Source: a virus. Taken from it: 29,092 nt of DNA. The notes beneath the pieces were generated by a model. That model did no database searches, was not told the DNA's origin, and saw only the letters and a program-made list of their open reading frames with translations. The DNA lies in the IMG/VR virus record IMGVR_UViG_3300000101_000103, positions 1 through 29,092 of that record; one strand, given 5' to 3'. Below are positions 795 through 28,905 of the stretch, in pieces. The first letter of the stretch is position 1. Each line of letters opens with the position of its first letter. The position numbers and the translations under genes are program-made.

Positions 795-1012
795 GCCACC
801 TAACAATGCAGCAACTAGAAGATTTAGGGTTTGAAGTTGCCAAATCAAAAAACGAATATTTTAGGATAGTTCAATATCGAAAAAAGGGTAATATATTAGT
901 TGAAACAGTTTGGCGTGAAAGCGGTGAATTTATATCTCAACGTTTATACTTGGAAAAAGTTACCTTAAATATCGAAAAACTCCAACAACTTGATAAACTA
1001 ATAAACAAATGA
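791..1012 (+). CDS. Hypothetical protein, 73 residues
   Basis: Small protein starting MSHLTMQQLEDLGFEVA. The pattern of a short helix, then alternating strand-like segments (YFRIVQYRKKGNILVETVW), then a helix with LNIEKLQQLDKLINK suggests a compact alpha/beta fold. It resembles small proteins common in Bacteroidota phages but I cannot name a function. It overlaps both neighbours by four bases, so the three genes are translationally coupled in one operon from the promoter at 489. Confidence 0.6.
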   Translation: MSHLTMQQLEDLGFEVAKSKNEYFRIVQYRKKGNILVETVWRESGEFISQRLYLEKVTLNIEKLQQLDKLINK

Positions 1013-1452
1013 AACAACTAATAAGAAAATCGGTATTTTCGATAATACTCATATGCAGCCTATCTGCACAAGGGCAAATAATATTTGAGATTAACGATAA
1101 AAAAGCCACAATAGTGCCATCGGTTACTTATGATACTGCCGTTTGCTTATCCCTTAACCAAATGGATAACATTATGATTGAACTATTAAAATGTGATAGC
1201 ATTGCAGAAGTATCCAAAATAAGCGATTTACAGCTATCTAAATACAAAAGCATAGTAAGTATGCAGAATGAGCAAATAAGTGCCGCAAAAGCCGCTATAT
1301 TAACCGCTAAAAACTTTAACAAGGCTTTGCAAATAGATGTACGGGAGCTTACCGCAGAAAACGAAACAACAAAAAGGAAATTAAACCGAAATAGAAAAGG
1401 CTTTATTGCCGCTTCGCTTGTTGCGGTTGTGGAGCTTCTTTTTTTATTATAA
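1009..1452 (+). CDS. Secreted/anchored coiled-coil protein with C-terminal membrane segment
   Basis: 147 residues. The N-terminus MKQLIRKSVFSIILICSLSA is a signal peptide, probably cleaved near AQG. A long coiled coil follows (about residues 60-125; SKISDLQLSKYKSIVSMQNE and the stretch after it). The C-terminus GFIAASLVAVVELLFLL is a membrane segment preceded by basic residues RKLNRNRKG-like. This topology fits an envelope-spanning protein. The last codons (LFLL and stop) lie inside a 27-bp direct repeat that recurs at the end of the Mom-family gene 720 bp downstream, so the original C-terminus may have been altered by cassette insertion. Function unknown; spanin-like is one option. Confidence 0.6.
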   Translation: MKQLIRKSVFSIILICSLSAQGQIIFEINDKKATIVPSVTYDTAVCLSLNQMDNIMIELLKCDSIAEVSKISDLQLSKYKSIVSMQNEQISAAKAAILTAKNFNKALQIDVRELTAENETTKRKLNRNRKGFIAASLVAVVELLFLL

Positions 1453-1463
1453 CGTACAAGTAT
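1437..1463 (+). repeat. 27-bp direct repeat, left copy, flanking the Mom cassette
   Basis: Positions 1437-1463 match 2157-2183 at 26 of 27 bases; the first 22 are identical. Both copies encode the same C-terminal LFLL plus TAA and then enter the attC-like element. The two copies are exactly 720 bp apart and bracket the Mom-family gene, which is the arrangement expected for an inserted or recombined cassette. Confidence 0.8.
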
Positions 1464-1500
1464 AAGGTGCGTTTTAATGCACTTTATACGTTGTTGTGTG
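1450..1500 (+). other. attC-like site A (stop codon plus inverted repeat)
   Basis: Starts with TAACGTACAAG, in which TAA is the stop of the preceding gene. An 11-bp stem follows: GTATAAGGTGC at 1460-1470 pairs with GCACTTTATAC at 1479-1489, with one G-T pair and an 8-nt loop GTTTTAAT. It ends with GTTGTTGTGTG. TAAC at the left and GTT at the right resemble the R-box ends of integron attC sites, and the inner arms resemble L boxes. There is no T-tract, so it is a poor intrinsic terminator. The attC reading is an inference from layout and from comparison with sites C and D. Confidence 0.5.
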
Positions 1501-1527
1501 ACGAAGTGAACAGTTAAAAAAGACAGG

Positions 1528-2172
1528 ATGAGCAAAAGCAAATTTCATATTTTAAGTATTGATAGTTACCAAACTTATGACTGGCTACTACATAAACATT
1601 ATGCCAAACGAATACCAAGTATTTCTTTTGCTTTTGGATTGTATGATGAAAACAACATAATGCAAGGGATAATAACTTATGGAAAACCTGCTTCTCCAAG
1701 TTTATGTGATGGTGTTTGCGGTGTTGAAAATAGGGATTACGTTTATGAGTTGAATAGACTTTGTGTAAATGATGGATTGCCTAAGAATACACTTTCTTTT
1801 TTTGTAGCTCAAAGCTTGAAATCTTTACCACCATTGATAATTGTTTCATATGCTGATACTGCCCAAAATCATAATGGCTACATTTACCAGGCTACAAATT
1901 GGATTTATACAGGTGCAACAAAAGAAAGAACCGACATAGGTAGTGAAGATGGTAGTCATAGTAGACATTATGATAAAAACATAGATTACACAAAAAATAG
2001 AAAGTTTAGAAGTAGTAAACACCGTTATATAAACTTTACTGGAACTAAAAAGCAAAAGAAATACTGGCGTAATTGCTTAAAATATGAAATTTGCGATTAT
2101 CCAAAAGGCGAAAACATTAGGTATGATGCAAGCTATAAACCAAGCGTACAGGCTCGTCTTTTTTTATTATAA
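1528..2172 (+). CDS. Mom-family DNA adenine modification protein (GNAT-like), copy 1
   Basis: 214 residues. The pattern matches the phage Mu Mom family: KHYAKRIPS with His24-Tyr25, ELNRLCV at 74-80, LPKNTLS, SYAD at 107-110, and GYIYQATNWIYTG at 117-129. Mu Mom converts adenine in phage DNA to a methylcarbamoyl form that resists host restriction; that activity is known for Mu and inferred here. The start at 1528 has a purine-rich GACAGG upstream. The gene sits alone between attC-like site A and a half site, bracketed by 27-bp direct repeats, so it looks like a cassette acquired separately from the second Mom-family gene at 21.2-21.9 kb, from which it is strongly diverged. The basic C-terminal half (KKQKKYWRN and around) could contact DNA. 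Confidence 0.75.
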   Translation: MSKSKFHILSIDSYQTYDWLLHKHYAKRIPSISFAFGLYDENNIMQGIITYGKPASPSLCDGVCGVENRDYVYELNRLCVNDGLPKNTLSFFVAQSLKSLPPLIIVSYADTAQNHNGYIYQATNWIYTGATKERTDIGSEDGSHSRHYDKNIDYTKNRKFRSSKHRYINFTGTKKQKKYWRNCLKYEICDYPKGENIRYDASYKPSVQARLFLL

Positions 2173-2183
2173 CGTACAGGTAT
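2157..2183 (+). repeat. 27-bp direct repeat, right copy, with attC-like half site B
   Basis: Second copy of the repeat at 1437-1463. It contains TAACGTACAGGTATA, the left half of an attC-like element, with TAA at 2170-2172 as the stop of the Mom-family gene. Unlike sites A, C and D no matching right arm follows; the sequence diverges after 2183 and the next ATG is at 2207. It may be a truncated site left by recombination. Confidence 0.7.
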
Positions 2184-2206
2184 ATGAATAGTAAAAATTA
2201 CGACTT

Positions 2207-2446
2207 ATGAAAACAAAAGATAATAAATGCGATAAAGGTTGGCACACAGGAAAGTGTTGCTGTAATTGTAAAAACCAAATTGAATTATTTAAACACCCGT
2301 GTAACAAAGTAAATAAAGGTGCAATAAATGAAAGTACAGGAATGTATGCTTGTATAGTTCAATTTGATTTTGATGGAGAACAGAAAGGTGTAATATTTGA
2401 AAAGCAACACGGATTTTGTGAAATGCACGTAAGCCATTGTAGGTAA
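2207..2446 (+). CDS. Small cysteine-rich, probably metal-binding protein
   Basis: 79 residues with Cys at GKCCCNCKNQ, HPCNK, MYACIV, HGFCEMH and a final SHC. The clusters CCxC, HxC and CxMH could bind zinc. Similar cysteine-rich small proteins are widespread in Bacteroidota genomes and phages but have no known function. The start follows CGACTT; its TAA stop (2444-2446) is the first base group of attC-like site C. It forms a one-gene cassette between half site B and site C. Confidence 0.65.
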   Translation: MKTKDNKCDKGWHTGKCCCNCKNQIELFKHPCNKVNKGAINESTGMYACIVQFDFDGEQKGVIFEKQHGFCEMHVSHCR

Positions 2447-2496
2447 TGTTGAGTATAAAAAATCGTTTTAATGTTTTTTATACAATGTTAGCACCC
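2444..2496 (+). other. attC-like site C (stop codon plus inverted repeat)
   Basis: Starts TAATGTTGA with the stop of the preceding gene. A perfect 10-bp stem follows: GTATAAAAAA at 2453-2462 with TTTTTTATAC at 2474-2483. The loop holds CGTTTTAATG, the same ten bases as in site A, where they span the loop and closing pair. It ends AATGTTAGCACC. The shared loop and shared GTATAA...TTATAC arms make common descent of A and C likely. As with site A, a plain terminator is a weaker explanation because no T-tract follows the stem. Confidence 0.5.
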
Positions 2497-2553
2497 GTTT
2501 TTTTGTTTAAGTAGAATTATTTTAAAAATATTTATACTTTTTTTATTAAAAAG

Positions 2554-2584
2554 TTTGTAGGTATAAATATTTGTTGTATCTTTA
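2554..2584 (+). promoter_or_regulatory. Bacteroidota-type promoter inside the cassette block
   Basis: TTTG at 2554-2557, 19 bases, then TATCTTTA at 2577-2584, matching the Bacteroidota TTTG-N19-21-TAnnTTTG consensus in all but the last base. The start codon of the next gene is 26 nt downstream at 2610, with a purine-rich AAACAAAGAAA in between. It gives the last cassette its own promoter. Confidence 0.65.
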
Positions 2585-2609
2585 CACTATAATTAAAAAC
2601 AAAGAAATT

Positions 2610-2807
2610 ATGACAACTCAAGAATTAAAAGAAACAGTAGCTCAACTAAAAGGATATAATGTAGTTGATGTAGATTTTCAAGTAAACACTTTTACAACAG
2701 ACAAAAAATGTGTTTATGCTTTTGATTTAACAAAAAAAGGATTATTAAAAGCTAACTCAATTAAGTTTATGTGGACTGTGGCTAATTTTCAAAACTGCTC
2801 TTACTAA
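2610..2807 (+). CDS. Hypothetical protein, 65 residues
   Basis: Begins MTTQELKETVAQLKGYNVVD. The ATG at 2610 is chosen over an in-frame TTG at 2571 because the TTG lies upstream of the -7 box of the promoter at 2554-2584. The product is a small alpha/beta protein with a strand pattern VVDVDFQVNTF and YAFDLTKKG. Not recognised. The stop TAA shares its last A with the ATG of the following gene, so the two are coupled. Confidence 0.6.
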   Translation: MTTQELKETVAQLKGYNVVDVDFQVNTFTTDKKCVYAFDLTKKGLLKANSIKFMWTVANFQNCSY

Positions 2808-2986
2808 TGAACGAAAACATAATAATACTAACCAACGGAGAATCCTACGAAGCGTGGGGTTCTCTCGTTGAGTTGTGTAAAGTCAAAGGATTTAGTCACA
2901 ATTATTTGAAGCGTTTAAAATATCCGTTTGAGTATAAAGGGTTGAAATTTATTCGTGTGCCGTTTCGGTCTTCAAATGGGTGCTAA
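2807..2986 (+). CDS. Hypothetical small protein, 59 residues
   Basis: ATG at 2807 overlaps the previous stop; TAA at 2984-2986 is embedded in attC-like site D. The protein runs MNENIIILTNGESYEAWGSL to a C-terminus RVPFRSSNGC. The central WGSLVELCKVKGFSHNYLKR has the helix-turn-helix spacing of a small DNA-binding or regulatory protein and is followed by a strand-rich YEYKGLKFIRVPF-like tail, a pattern common in small Bacteroidota phage proteins. The DNA-binding idea is tentative. Confidence 0.6.
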   Translation: MNENIIILTNGESYEAWGSLVELCKVKGFSHNYLKRLKYPFEYKGLKFIRVPFRSSNGC

Positions 2987-3045
2987 CGCCAGTATATGCC
3001 TAAGCTCTGCGACCCGTTAGGGTTAGGTATATACTATGTTATACA
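2984..3045 (+). other. attC-like site D (best example)
   Basis: CTAAC at 2983-2987 (containing the TAA stop) faces GTTATAC at 3038-3044. Inside, AGTATATGCCTAA (2991-3003) pairs with TTAGGTATATACT (3023-3035) over 13 positions with one G-T pair. The spacers between outer and inner boxes are unequal (GCC on the left, AT on the right), leaving an extra unpaired base as in folded attC hairpins. The 19-nt apex contains a small CCC/GGG stem. The right arm overlaps, antisense, the true end of the endolysin reading frame (stop at 3034). Confidence 0.55.
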
Positions 3046-3192
3046 TCGAATATACTTATCCTCTATCAAGTTATTTTTTTCAGCATTGTACCGGCTTAAC
3101 AATACCCTCCAATGTGCTGCACCTTTAATAGTAAAGTGGGGTAAATCCCACTTTTTTCCGTTGGTTATAAATCCGTTTACCCATCCACGCTT
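3034..3192 (-). pseudogene. Endolysin C-terminal part in the -1 frame
   Basis: The frame one base back from the endolysin is open from 3192 to a TAG at 3034. It encodes GWVNGFITNGKKWDLPHFTI and then AHWRVLLSRYNAEKNN. PHF is the missing third zinc-ligand motif of M15 peptidases, and the W-LL-YN tail is typical of Bacteroidota phage endolysins. Joining residues 1-118 of the upstream part to the glycine before WVNG gives 168 residues, the usual length. The simplest reading is a one-base deletion (or read error) near 3181-3192, where both frames are open. Confidence 0.75.
3133..3157 (+). terminator. Probable intrinsic terminator of the rightward block
   Basis: AAAGTGGG (3133-3140), loop GTAAAT, CCCACTTT (3147-3154) and a T-run to 3157. 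This would stop rightward transcription before it enters the leftward structural genes. The same bases on the other strand encode part of the frameshifted endolysin C-terminus (KKWDLPHF), so the hairpin does double duty or is partly fortuitous. Confidence 0.55.
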
Positions 3193-3539
3193 TCAAATAC
3201 TTTGGTTACTTCCAACCAATCGGAAACGCCATCTCTATCTCCATCTCTTTTAGTATCCCAACTCGCCTCCTCAAAAATGCCATCGCCATTTTTATCGTAT
3301 AATAGCACTATGTCAAATGCTGCTCCGTAATTGTGGTAGCTTTGCCCTGCTTTTGCATTGGTTACTTTTGGTCTTTTTAAATAGAGTGCATCCTGCTCTG
3401 CAAATGTCCTTAGCGTGTGGCTAAATCTTAACCTTACCCCTTTACCTAAAACATTATTTGCCGCCGTATAATCCTCTCGCAGCTTATCTCTTAAGCTAGG
3501 GTGCATTAACTCAATTCTTTCTAAACTTATTTTATCCAT
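3177..3539 (-). CDS. M15 peptidase endolysin, frameshifted (N-terminal part)
   Basis: 120 residues as read. RFSHTLRTFAEQDALY followed by KAGQSYHNYGAAFDIVLL is the M15 (D-Ala-D-Ala carboxypeptidase-like / L-Ala-D-Glu peptidase) signature, with zinc ligands His69 and Asp76 in SxHxxGxAxD. The enzyme would cleave peptidoglycan peptides for host lysis. The frame stops after KVFESVDG, before the PHF motif with the third zinc ligand, which is found in the overlapping -1 frame (3034-3192). As annotated the enzyme would be inactive. It is the last gene of the leftward structural run and follows holin-like and coiled-coil membrane genes. Confidence 0.8.
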   Translation of the reverse strand: MDKISLERIELMHPSLRDKLREDYTAANNVLGKGVRLRFSHTLRTFAEQDALYLKRPKVTNAKAGQSYHNYGAAFDIVLLYDKNGDGIFEEASWDTKRDGDRDGVSDWLEVTKVFESVDG

Positions 3540-21134: not shown

Positions 21135-21205
21135 GCGGTATTGGTGTAACGGTTGCACGCTTGACATTCCAGTCAAGAGGTAAAGTTCGAATCTATTATA
21201 CCGCT
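21135..21205 (+). tRNA. tRNA-Gly(TCC)-like gene, divergent arms
   Basis: A 71-nt cloverleaf. The acceptor stem GCGGTAT/ATACCGC is perfect (7 bp), followed by T as discriminator. D arm GTGT/GCAC with an AACGGTT loop. Anticodon arm CTTGAC/GTCAAG gives loop ATTCCA with U33, anticodon TCC and A37, one base short of the usual loop (or eight bases if the last pair opens). G1-C72, C35, C36 and U73 are glycine identity elements. The T arm TTCGAAT loop is normal but its stem has only 3 of 5 pairs unless an A is bulged. No CCA is encoded. It overlaps the 3' end of the Mom-family gene antisense by 33 nt. Confidence 0.75.
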
Positions 21206-21862
21206 CTTTTTTCTTTCGGCTAAACTTATTTTTTTGCCCTTATACATTCCTGCACCTTGTTTATCTATTTCGCTAAATGGTAATATTGGAACAGTTATTT
21301 TGCAAGTTTTGTCAATTAGGTAAATGTATTTTAATTGCTTTCCTTTAAATGGTTTCCAATTTTTAAACTCGATACTCATTTTTAAATGGTGTGCTTGTAT
21401 AACGTGCATTGCATCTCCAGTTTCTGGATTCATTCTTAAAGCGGTATTGTCTACAATTCCAACTAATTTAAAACCACTTGCTCTATAAATAGTACCATCC
21501 CCGCACTGAGTGCCGTCAGCAAAACTTATTATCCATTTTATTTGTGGTGCATTCTTTTTAATTAATTTAATACTAATTGCAATACATCTACTTTCTGAAT
21601 ATTTTGGTAGGTAATCATCAAAAGCCATTCTGTTTAATTCAATAAACTCATTCCAACCCGTACCATCTACAAGATTAATAGTTCCTTTTTTATTTATGCT
21701 TGGACCATATTGCATAACACCGTGCAATTTATTATCTAAAAAACAACCAAAATGCAATGTGCTATTTGGAACTACTTTACCGCTATAATGATGCTTTTTT
21801 ACAAACTCATTAGCAACCTTAGCTGGTATTACTTTTACTATTATATCTTTTGCTCTGCCCAT
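21173..21862 (-). CDS. Mom-family DNA adenine modification protein, copy 2
   Basis: 229 residues. KKHHYSGKVVPNS (His24/His25-Tyr26), FGCFLDNKLHGVMQYG, ELNRMAFDDYLPKYS at 75-89, SFADGTQCGDGTIYRASGF at 113-131 and the basic C-terminus follow the same order as Mu Mom. The role is probably to modify adenines in phage DNA against restriction. It overlaps the ParB-like gene upstream by 22 nt, so the two are co-translated, just before packaging genes. The last ten codons (SGIIDSNFTS) are antisense to the tRNA and are probably not conserved. It differs strongly from the copy at 1.5-2.2 kb. Confidence 0.75.
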   Translation of the reverse strand: MGRAKDIIVKVIPAKVANEFVKKHHYSGKVVPNSTLHFGCFLDNKLHGVMQYGPSINKKGTINLVDGTGWNEFIELNRMAFDDYLPKYSESRCIAISIKLIKKNAPQIKWIISFADGTQCGDGTIYRASGFKLVGIVDNTALRMNPETGDAMHVIQAHHLKMSIEFKNWKPFKGKQLKYIYLIDKTCKITVPILPFSEIDKQGAGMYKGKKISLAERKKSGIIDSNFTS

Positions 21863-22434
21863 TGCATTACGATTAAATATAAAGCGTTGCCGTTGCTGTT
21901 TTCGTTACCCATAGTTTCGCAGTATTTATATTCCTCTGTTTGTTTAATATCCGCTATTCCGTTTTTTATTTGCTCTGCTTGCTCATCTGCAAGAGTGAAA
22001 GTCATTTGTTGAAAGGGTGATTTATCCCCATCAGGCAAACTAAACTCTTCGCTTGTATCTATATCATCAATGTTTTGCCAACTATCCAAACCCCAATCTT
22101 CCAACTCTTGGCTATTCCATTCATTACCCAAAATATCCCAATCCCACTCGCCAAAGCCAACATTATCCTTAATGATAAATTGTCGTTGTTGTTCTTCTGT
22201 TAATTCAGATGCAATCAATACTGGAACTTCTTGCACTCCTAAATCTTGCAATGCTCTTAATCTCATATTGCCACCAAGTACCATCATATCAGCATCCACC
22301 ACTATTGGTCTAAGTTCTAACATTTCAGGAAATTCAGAAACAGAACGCTTCAGCTTCTCAAACTTTTCATCCTTTAAAACTCTTGGGTTTTTTAGGTTTG
22401 GTTTTATGTCTTTGATTTTAACGTATTTCATCAA
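21841..22434 (-). CDS. ParB-like N-terminal domain protein
   Basis: 197 residues. VKIKDIKPNLKNPRVLKDEK then a helix, LRPIVVDADMMVLGGNMRLR with GGNMRLRA at 54-61 as the ParB box that binds CTP in ParB family members, and ERQFIIKDNVGFGEWDWDIL-like text at 82-101. The C-terminal LTFTLADEQAEQIKNGIAD-type segment is a second small domain. In phages such proteins often accompany DNA-modification enzymes and terminases; overlap with a Mom-family gene is consistent with that. Nuclease or partition roles are both possible. Confidence 0.7.
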   Translation of the reverse strand: MMKYVKIKDIKPNLKNPRVLKDEKFEKLKRSVSEFPEMLELRPIVVDADMMVLGGNMRLRALQDLGVQEVPVLIASELTEEQQRQFIIKDNVGFGEWDWDILGNEWNSQELEDWGLDSWQNIDDIDTSEEFSLPDGDKSPFQQMTFTLADEQAEQIKNGIADIKQTEEYKYCETMGNENSNGNALYLIVMQWAEQKI

Positions 22435-28239: not shown

Positions 28240-28905
28240 TTAAAATAATTTAAGTTGTTTTTTATGGTCTTCAAGTCTTTTCATTGCGGCATCGTAGTAC
28301 TCCTTATCTAACTCGCAAGCGGTAAGGTCAAAGCCTAAGTTGTGACAAGCAATGGCTATGCTACCGCTGCCTAAATGTGTATCGAGTATTTTGTCGCCAT
28401 CTTTGGCGTAGTTAATTAAAAGCCATTCGTATAGTTTAACAGGTTTTTCTGTTGGATGTATTTTCTTTTGTTTTTGTGGATTGTTTAAATATCCGAAGCC
28501 AATCCAATCGTATGTAAATTTTCTCAATATACAATCAAAAGAAGTATAAGCTAATTCGCCATCGGAATAGTTTTTATTATTCGCATTTGTTATTTTTTTA
28601 TCCCAATATATCCAACCCTTTTTTGCAGGTAATAAATCAGCAAAATAATTACCACCCCAAATTACTTGATTTTTAGACACTCTTTGCAATTCTGTAAAGT
28701 ATTCTAAAGACGGTCTTTCACTATCCCATTCTTTCTTAATATGATGTTGTTTATTAGAAAATGTACTTGCTTTTCCACTTTTCCCTTTTACGGTTGTATT
28801 ACCGTCAAAACCAATCCCATAAGGAGGGTCTACAATAGCCAAGTCAAAATACCCATCGGGGTAGCGTGCCATCAGCTCCATATTGTCCTCATTGGTTATT
28901 GTCAT
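28240..28905 (-). CDS. DNA adenine-N6 / cytosine-N4 methyltransferase
   Basis: 221 residues. DLAIVDPPYGIGFDGN has catalytic motif IV DPPY at 26-29; KNQVIWGGNYFADLLP and GWIYWDK follow; HPTEKPVKLYEWLL (150-163) is motif X/I-adjacent; ILDTHLGSGSIAIACHNLGF (173-192) is the SAM-binding motif I. Motif IV before motif I is the beta-class order. DPPY usually methylates adenine. It probably protects phage DNA from restriction and with two Mom-family genes gives three DNA-modification candidates. It overlaps the upstream gene by 4 nt. Confidence 0.8.
   Translation of the reverse strand: MTITNEDNMELMARYPDGYFDLAIVDPPYGIGFDGNTTVKGKSGKASTFSNKQHHIKKEWDSERPSLEYFTELQRVSKNQVIWGGNYFADLLPAKKGWIYWDKKITNANNKNYSDGELAYTSFDCILRKFTYDWIGFGYLNNPQKQKKIHPTEKPVKLYEWLLINYAKDGDKILDTHLGSGSIAIACHNLGFDLTACELDKEYYDAAMKRLEDHKKQLKLF

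Follow-up and report, generated by a model that had tools for sequence, protein, structure and literature searches.

A probable integron-type cassette array without an integrase and with a Mom-family gene as cargo in a Bacteroidota phage

How did a Mom-family gene come to lie between two copies of a 27-bp direct repeat in a viral genome? The locus belongs to the IMG/VR record IMGVR_UViG_3300000101_000103, and the whole stretch analyzed (positions 1–29,092; a linear virus record of 29,092 bases, which may be incomplete) is referred to as the window. We read bases 1445–3045, between ORF 1009–1452 and an endolysin gene, as an integron-type cassette array without an integrase (CALIN) in a Bacteroidota phage and assign this reading a probability of about 0.8. 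The sites, the geometry of the array, the complementarity of cassette ends, the differing cargo at the same locus of a relative, and the breakpoints at G|TT in other phages support it directly. The 27-bp repeat would then be a secondary feature, copy 1 of which combines the T-rich end of the backbone gene with the left half of an attC-like site. The features are listed by position and strand.

1009–1452 (+): backbone gene of 147 aa, function not assigned, with a C-terminal segment that is hydrophobic; the final codons make up repeat copy 1, and the stop lies inside the R'' box of site A
1437–1464 (+): repeat copy 1; end of ORF 1009–1452 plus R'' box, spacer, and first stem bases of site A
1445–1500 (+): attC-like site A; R'' box 1447–1453, stem 1460–1470/1479–1489, presumed crossover 1493|1494; 61 bits, E 4.4e-12; folds, z −2.45
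1494–2156 (+): Mom cassette body, from its start TTGTGTGACG, which follows the G|TT of site A, up to the point where Mom-derived sequence stops; lacks a downstream attC of its own
1528–2172 (+): Mom-family DNA modification gene, 214 aa, C-terminus lengthened by LL (Pfam, PHROG, and comparison with the C-termini of relatives)
2157–2184 (+): repeat copy 2; apparently repeats only the 5' half of site A, fused within a T-run to the 3' end of Mom; no stem with its surroundings, z −0.43
2207–2446 (+): Cys-rich gene of 79 aa, second cassette; its homologue in record L140 has complementary cassette-type ends
2439–2494 (+): attC-like site C, with AAT for AAC; presumed crossover 2487|2488; E 1.2e-6
2488–3038 (+): third cassette, ORFs 2571/2613–2807 and 2807–2986; complementary ends 2487–2500/2974–2987 (inverted repeat I21, 13/14)
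2979–3045 (+): attC-like site D; presumed crossover 3038|3039; E 1.5e-4; a near-identical hairpin closes a different cassette in the relative L139
3039–3539 (no strand): right backbone flank, common to L139, with an endolysin-like gene at 3177–3539 (−)

The repeat and the enclosed Mom gene

The repeat reads TCTTTTTTTATTATAACGTACA[A/G]GTATA at 1437–1464 and 2157–2184. The copies share 27 of 28 bases, including all of the first 22, at a spacing of 720 bp; the identity of 26 of 27 bases given in the initial annotation for 1437–1463 and 2157–2183, 720 bp apart, holds for that shorter extent. Exact direct repeats of at least 18 nt were absent from all 300 first-order shuffles of the 4.5-kb region, and a chance origin of the repeat was therefore rejected. 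The pattern TATTATAACGTACANGTATA found no match in viral contigs; the exact repeat is thus known from the window alone. Both ORFs end in LFLL-stop within the repeat, as had been noted before. The earlier observation that the right half is absent at the second copy was likewise correct: copy 1 runs into the hairpin GTATAAGGTGC gttttaat GCACTTTATAC, followed by GTT and GTTGTGTG, whereas copy 2 does not.

The assignment of the enclosed gene to the Mom family was confirmed by profile searches (Pfam PF25680, 2.7e-34 and 119 bits compared with a curated cut-off of 27.1; PHROG 1384, 1.2e-57). Adenine modification of phage DNA is its predicted activity. Copy 2 alters the C-terminus of the protein, as previously proposed: most relatives end in ...LF-stop, the window protein in ...RLFLL-stop. 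A BLASTN search of the region against phages yielded distant Mom genes only. Two models of integration by other elements were considered and not retained, namely, a composite transposon or target-site duplication (neither a transposase nor a single-copy site was found) and a homing-type insertion, to which nothing in the cassettes points.

A second Mom-family gene is located at 21173–21862 on the minus strand (Pfam 3.4e-50) beside a gene with a ParB_N domain (21841–22434); the covariance model described below placed no attC-like site near it. A tRNA-like sequence at 21135–21205 on the plus strand (RF00005, 40.5 bits) overlaps the end of this gene on the opposite strand. Apart from tRNA, Rfam gave no match at the gathering threshold.

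attC-like sites, cassette borders, and the recombining enzyme

Integron attC sites follow the plan AAC, spacer, stem-loop, spacer, GTT. The nature of the repeat was explained by the recognition of two further sites of this plan, C and D, which the initial annotation had missed; sites A, C, and D all lie on the plus strand within 1.6 kb. The canonical boxes (RYYYAAC and GTTRRRY around an imperfect stem-loop) are recovered loosely, with TTATAAC and GTTGTGT in site A, the latter departing from GTTRRRY, and TGCTAAC and GTTATAC in site D. For the pattern GTATA-N{5,35}-TATAC-NNN-GTT, the window has three occurrences, always on the plus strand and between 1460 and 3040, where 0.08 would be expected. 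The departing GTTGTGT of site A and the AAT of site C count against the array reading. So does the R'' box TTATAAC of site A: the window holds no cassette start that matches it, and site A thus closes no ordinary gene-bearing cassette. Record L118 (1164–1261) contains a gene-less cassette, with just 62 bases between two attC-like hairpins; site A may be a similar unit.

The hairpin pattern of site A matched 47 viral contigs and eight bacterial genome records, nearly all of them carrying Bacteroidota names. In these records, (pyrimidine-rich) AACG stands before the hairpin and GTT behind it. A covariance model was trained on 26 sites from other records, none from the window and two from the flavobacterial phage P12002L. 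Besides A, C, and D, the only hit it gave in the window at E < 1 was the antisense of A. C and D test the model more independently than A, whose hairpin recurs unchanged in many training sites. In the 26 sites, 97.8% of the pair cells are standard, and 29 cells show double changes compared with 6.8 in shuffles; versions of the stem slid along the alignment all scored low. Stem pair 7 is G.T in 23 of the sites and A-T in the other three, never G-C. On the bottom strand, which is the recombining strand in known integrons, this G.T becomes a C.A mismatch; the mismatch may stand in for the extrahelical bases of classical attC sites. Attention is also drawn to attC-like sites with long loops reaching into ORFs (L004, 3899–4636), a type that short-loop models miss.

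In integrons, a cassette begins with a sequence complementary to its terminal R'' box. The third cassette has such ends (GTTAGCACCCGTTT at 2487 and AAATGGGTGCTAAC at 2974; 13/14), and so does the cassette of L139 (GTTATAGGGCGTTT/AAATGCCCTATAAC). Among 20 pairs of neighboring sites, nearly all from other records, nine matched at 9–10 of 11 positions, whereas 3.7% of random pairings reached 8; in most of the remaining 11, the scanner probably overlooked a site lying in between. The complementarity extends over about 14 nt, and a constant G/A difference was found at position 11 in the well-matched pairs as well as in cassette 3 and in L139. Together with the G.T/A-T state of pair 7, this difference is a possible strand mark of this class of attC sites. 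For the Mom and 2207 cassettes, complementary ends were sought and not found, their common junction being replaced by copy 2. The homologue of the 2207–2446 gene in L140 shows the cassette-type ends GTTAGCAGTAGTAA ... TTATTACTGCTAAC (read by eye).

Three Mom cassettes in L102, L075, and L077 are about 92% identical over 760 nt and stand behind three unrelated attC-like sites. To their left, identity drops to 29%–35% over 100 nt, and the break falls exactly at G|TT. L139 agrees with this border at the locus of the window, for whose own Mom cassette the same border is predicted. At the other end, the three cassettes (L102 1431, L075 4755, L077 1343) diverge abruptly as soon as the R'' box ends instead of beyond the hairpin, so that the downstream half of the attC is lost (L102, L077) or degenerate (L075).

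These data also bear on the possibility that the hairpins are transcription terminators or other gene-end structures, near which ordinary homologous or illegitimate recombination took place. The hairpins are indeed located after genes, and attC sites themselves are thought to be weak terminators (PMC9892861). However, three features would not be expected of such structures: complementary cassette ends beyond the hairpin, AAC and GTT that are invariant outside the stem in 26 of 26 sites, and breaks that coincide with G|TT where the preceding stems are unrelated. The stems are not followed by a T-run. We therefore regard this explanation as improbable.

With three attC-like sites and no match to TIGR02249 (IntI family) in the possibly incomplete record, the locus corresponds to a CALIN (at least two attC sites, no adjacent integron integrase) and not to a complete integron with intI and attI, as the record holds no intI match. 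In the proposed mechanism, each cassette would run from a TTRRRY start to an end of the form RYYYAAC–hairpin–G, and an integrase provided in trans by the host or a co-resident element would insert or remove cassettes at G|TT. Recombination of the window's sites as folded bottom strands by an integron integrase is a prediction from their sequence.

Neither 52 related phage records nor seven bacterial genomes in which such sites occur contained IntI above the cut-off, which counts against the array reading. A mobile array would accordingly need an enzyme from outside the phage. The bacterial genomes contain several tyrosine recombinases scoring below the IntI cut-off, but 14 of 14 control genomes gave sub-cut-off matches as well, which renders these scores uninformative. 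In Labilibacter sediminis (L132, L142), four attC-like sites and three well-matched cassettes lie near a gene for a tyrosine recombinase of 574 aa, a possible integrase of this class that scores below the IntI cut-off; its best score is XerA-like, also below the cut-offs. This neighborhood and the lack of over-cut-off IntI in the searched genomes and phages would fit an exchange of the sites by a non-integron recombinase, such as an atypical Bacteroidota tyrosine recombinase. Against this, the sites have the anatomy of attC, and IntI1 uses sites of this kind in P12002L: this integrase recombined five of six phage attC sites into attI1, including attC2 of P12002L (Qi et al., 2023; PMC9892861), a site not matched by coordinate in our analysis. 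A non-integron recombinase thus appears doubtful, though it deserves to be kept in mind, and an integron integrase acting in trans is preferred.

The locus in a relative and the origin of the second repeat copy

L139 is the only close relative found at this locus, with a homologue of ORF 1009–1452 of 75% identity. Its backbone gene ends in VELVILL-stop instead of VELLFLL-stop. At the end of this gene L139 reads TTTTG|TTATAG. A different single gene comes next, then CCCTATAACG, an almost identical site D, TACTATG|TTATACATC, and the endolysin flank that the window also has. Neither a Mom gene nor a copy of the repeat is present at the homologous place. A search with the endolysin flank returned the contig of L139 again (L149) and more distant phages, in which no convincing sites were seen. 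The locus exchanges cargo, as one close relative carries a different cassette between the same flanks. The first cassette may have entered the backbone by an attG-type insertion, as L139 would suggest.

The initial annotation had concluded that the Mom gene was inserted, or that the two gene ends were joined by recombination at a shared sequence. The first part agrees with the absence of the gene from the homologous place in L139; an insertion by the 27-bp repeats is not supported. As a mechanism, a circle or a second phage carrying Mom and one repeat copy would have recombined homologously with a resident copy. The repeat and its spacing are real, and the sequence after copy 2 is unlike that after copy 1, as if resident DNA continued there. 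On the other hand, L139 is devoid of any copy, and Mom begins at a proper cassette start behind the complete site A, with a presumed crossover (1493|1494) contained in neither copy. Moreover, other Mom cassettes stand behind unrelated sites without such repeats, and the CGTCTTTTTT part of copy 2 comes from the Mom family's own end. We consider insertion through the repeats improbable. The predicted relative, in which ORF 1009–1452 is followed by the 2207 gene with one repeat copy between them, was not found. A target-site duplication would leave the repeat once in an unoccupied site; the comparison covers L139, which lacks the repeat but is a single relative at 75% protein identity whose locus is filled by another cassette.

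The preferred reading as a cassette array leaves copy 2 to be explained. Since relatives of Mom end in ...LF, the LL-stop was gained at copy 2, with the junction in the T-run. The nearest relative, L004, has the DNA sequence CGCCTTTTTTAA followed by the R''-like CCTACAACGG, where the window reads CGTCTTTTTTTATTATAACG. Because the Mom cassette starts with GTTGTGTGACGAAG, its R'' box should resemble CTTCGTCACACAAC; this sequence was not found downstream of Mom, and the start of the 2207 cassette expected from site C is also absent. Accordingly, a piece similar to the left half of site A has taken the place of the cassette junction. Copy 2 would thus be a partial copy of the stretch around copy 1, joined in the T-run at the Mom end, most simply through gene conversion or an exchange at short homology. 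Another phage may have acted as the donor, one in which the end of ORF 1009–1452 precedes a different attC (GTATATGAATAG instead of GTATAAGGTGCG). The unequal exchange suggested earlier is therefore retained as the best guess for the origin of copy 2, although it would have taken place within an already existing array. Such an exchange would have removed the attC of Mom and the start of the next cassette and probably locks the Mom cassette in place.

The opposite order of events would make copy 1 the derived one, the repeat being the original attC end of the Mom cassette copied onto ORF 1009–1452. In favor of this order, the end of the gene differs in L139 at six of the last 18 bases, compared with one of the preceding 15. 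However, the start of the Mom cassette requires the R'' box CACACAAC, not TTATAAC, relatives of Mom lack LL, and the L139 homologue ends in ILL-stop. This order seems rather unlikely to us, and copy 1 is slightly favored as the source of copy 2; the evidence for this direction comes from one relative and from AT-rich sequence coding for hydrophobic residues, which limits its weight.

Cassette cargo and comparison with known systems

Mom genes recur next to such sites. In L088, the Mom gene has intact attC-like sites on both sides with the matching ends GTTAGGTG/CACCTAAC, and in P12002L a site directly precedes the Mom-like gene gp53. By inspection, the attC downstream of Mom is missing or degenerate in L102, L075, L077, L091, and P12002L and intact in L088, from which it follows that hairpin loss after Mom cassettes is recurrent.

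Where a strong site occurs in a viral record, the ORF next to follow it matched a DNA methyltransferase or Mom family in Pfam in 26 of 41 cases, compared with six of 55 controls (Fisher p ~7e-8). The 26 matches comprise 14 N6_N4_Mtase, five Mom, four D12, two C5, and one MT-A70, counted by family, so that a protein of two families would count twice. Other ORFs of 120–400 aa on the same contigs, called mechanically, served as controls after five that visibly followed a site had been removed by hand. The control set is imperfect in that a few cassette genes may be left in it, which would tend to reduce the contrast. Near the end of the window, an N6_N4 DNA methyltransferase gene (28240–28905, minus strand) encodes first residues that resemble those of a cassette-borne methyltransferase in L085.

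Integrons, whose cassettes bacteria exchange through site-specific recombination, are known as collectors of bacterial genes, chiefly of antibiotic resistance genes. In the window, the Mom gene would be the cargo of the first gene-bearing cassette and would protect the phage DNA from host restriction by modification. We give even odds to the wider proposal that anti-restriction cassettes with Mom or DNA methyltransferase genes form a mobile pool common to aquatic Bacteroidota phages; the cassettes would be swapped at attC sites by integrases acting in trans and become fixed when the attC hairpin is lost, as at copy 2. If this is true, phages use integron recombination to their own advantage in the arms race over restriction, and they have a modular route to swap anti-restriction genes, provided that integrases in trans move the cassettes. 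The 27-bp repeat would then exemplify how a cassette may be locked by the loss of its own attC. The cargo bias and the site features (pair 7, end position 11) are worth following.

The Mom protein of phage Mu (methylcarbamoylase mom, PDB 8bv8) belongs to the same family (PF25680) and aligns with an E value of 5.8e-8 over residues 19–133; the window gene differs from it as a cassette gene with an extended C-terminus and a predicted activity. Bacterial integrons share with the window the order AAC, spacer, stem-loop, spacer, GTT, complementary cassette ends, and small genes of the same orientation between the sites. In contrast to them, sites of the window type were found without an integrase, with G.T at pair 7 in 23 of 26 sites and about 14 nt of end complementarity with G/A at position 11. 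Cassette insertion at genomic sites other than attC (attG) was described by Loot et al. (2024), as cited in PMC12901181. The first cassette of L139, which begins TTTTG|TTATAG without an upstream attC, resembles this process but concerns a phage locus and is deduced from its sequence only.

Clusters of phage-borne cassettes entered the literature only in 2023, with 21 phages (Qi et al., 2023; PMC9892861). On the preferred reading, the locus is a phage CALIN carrying Mom as cargo, and phage CALINs as such are already published (Qi et al., 2023; PMC9892861). The text of that paper does not mention Mom, and our literature search yielded no description of a Mom cassette or of a cassette bias toward DNA modification genes. 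The isolated flavobacterial Tenacibaculum phage JQ (MT002873) likewise has sites matched by the model, with two DNA methyltransferase genes among them; it differs in that the 9-kb stretch read contains no Mom gene and two of its four sites are weak matches. The CALIN of P12002L (NC_028924; PMC9892861), in which the covariance model recognized five sites, also belongs to a flavobacterial phage and combines attC sites without an integrase with DNA methyltransferase cassette genes. The window differs from it in the phage, in the locus beside an endolysin gene, in the cargo, and in the duplication of a half-site.
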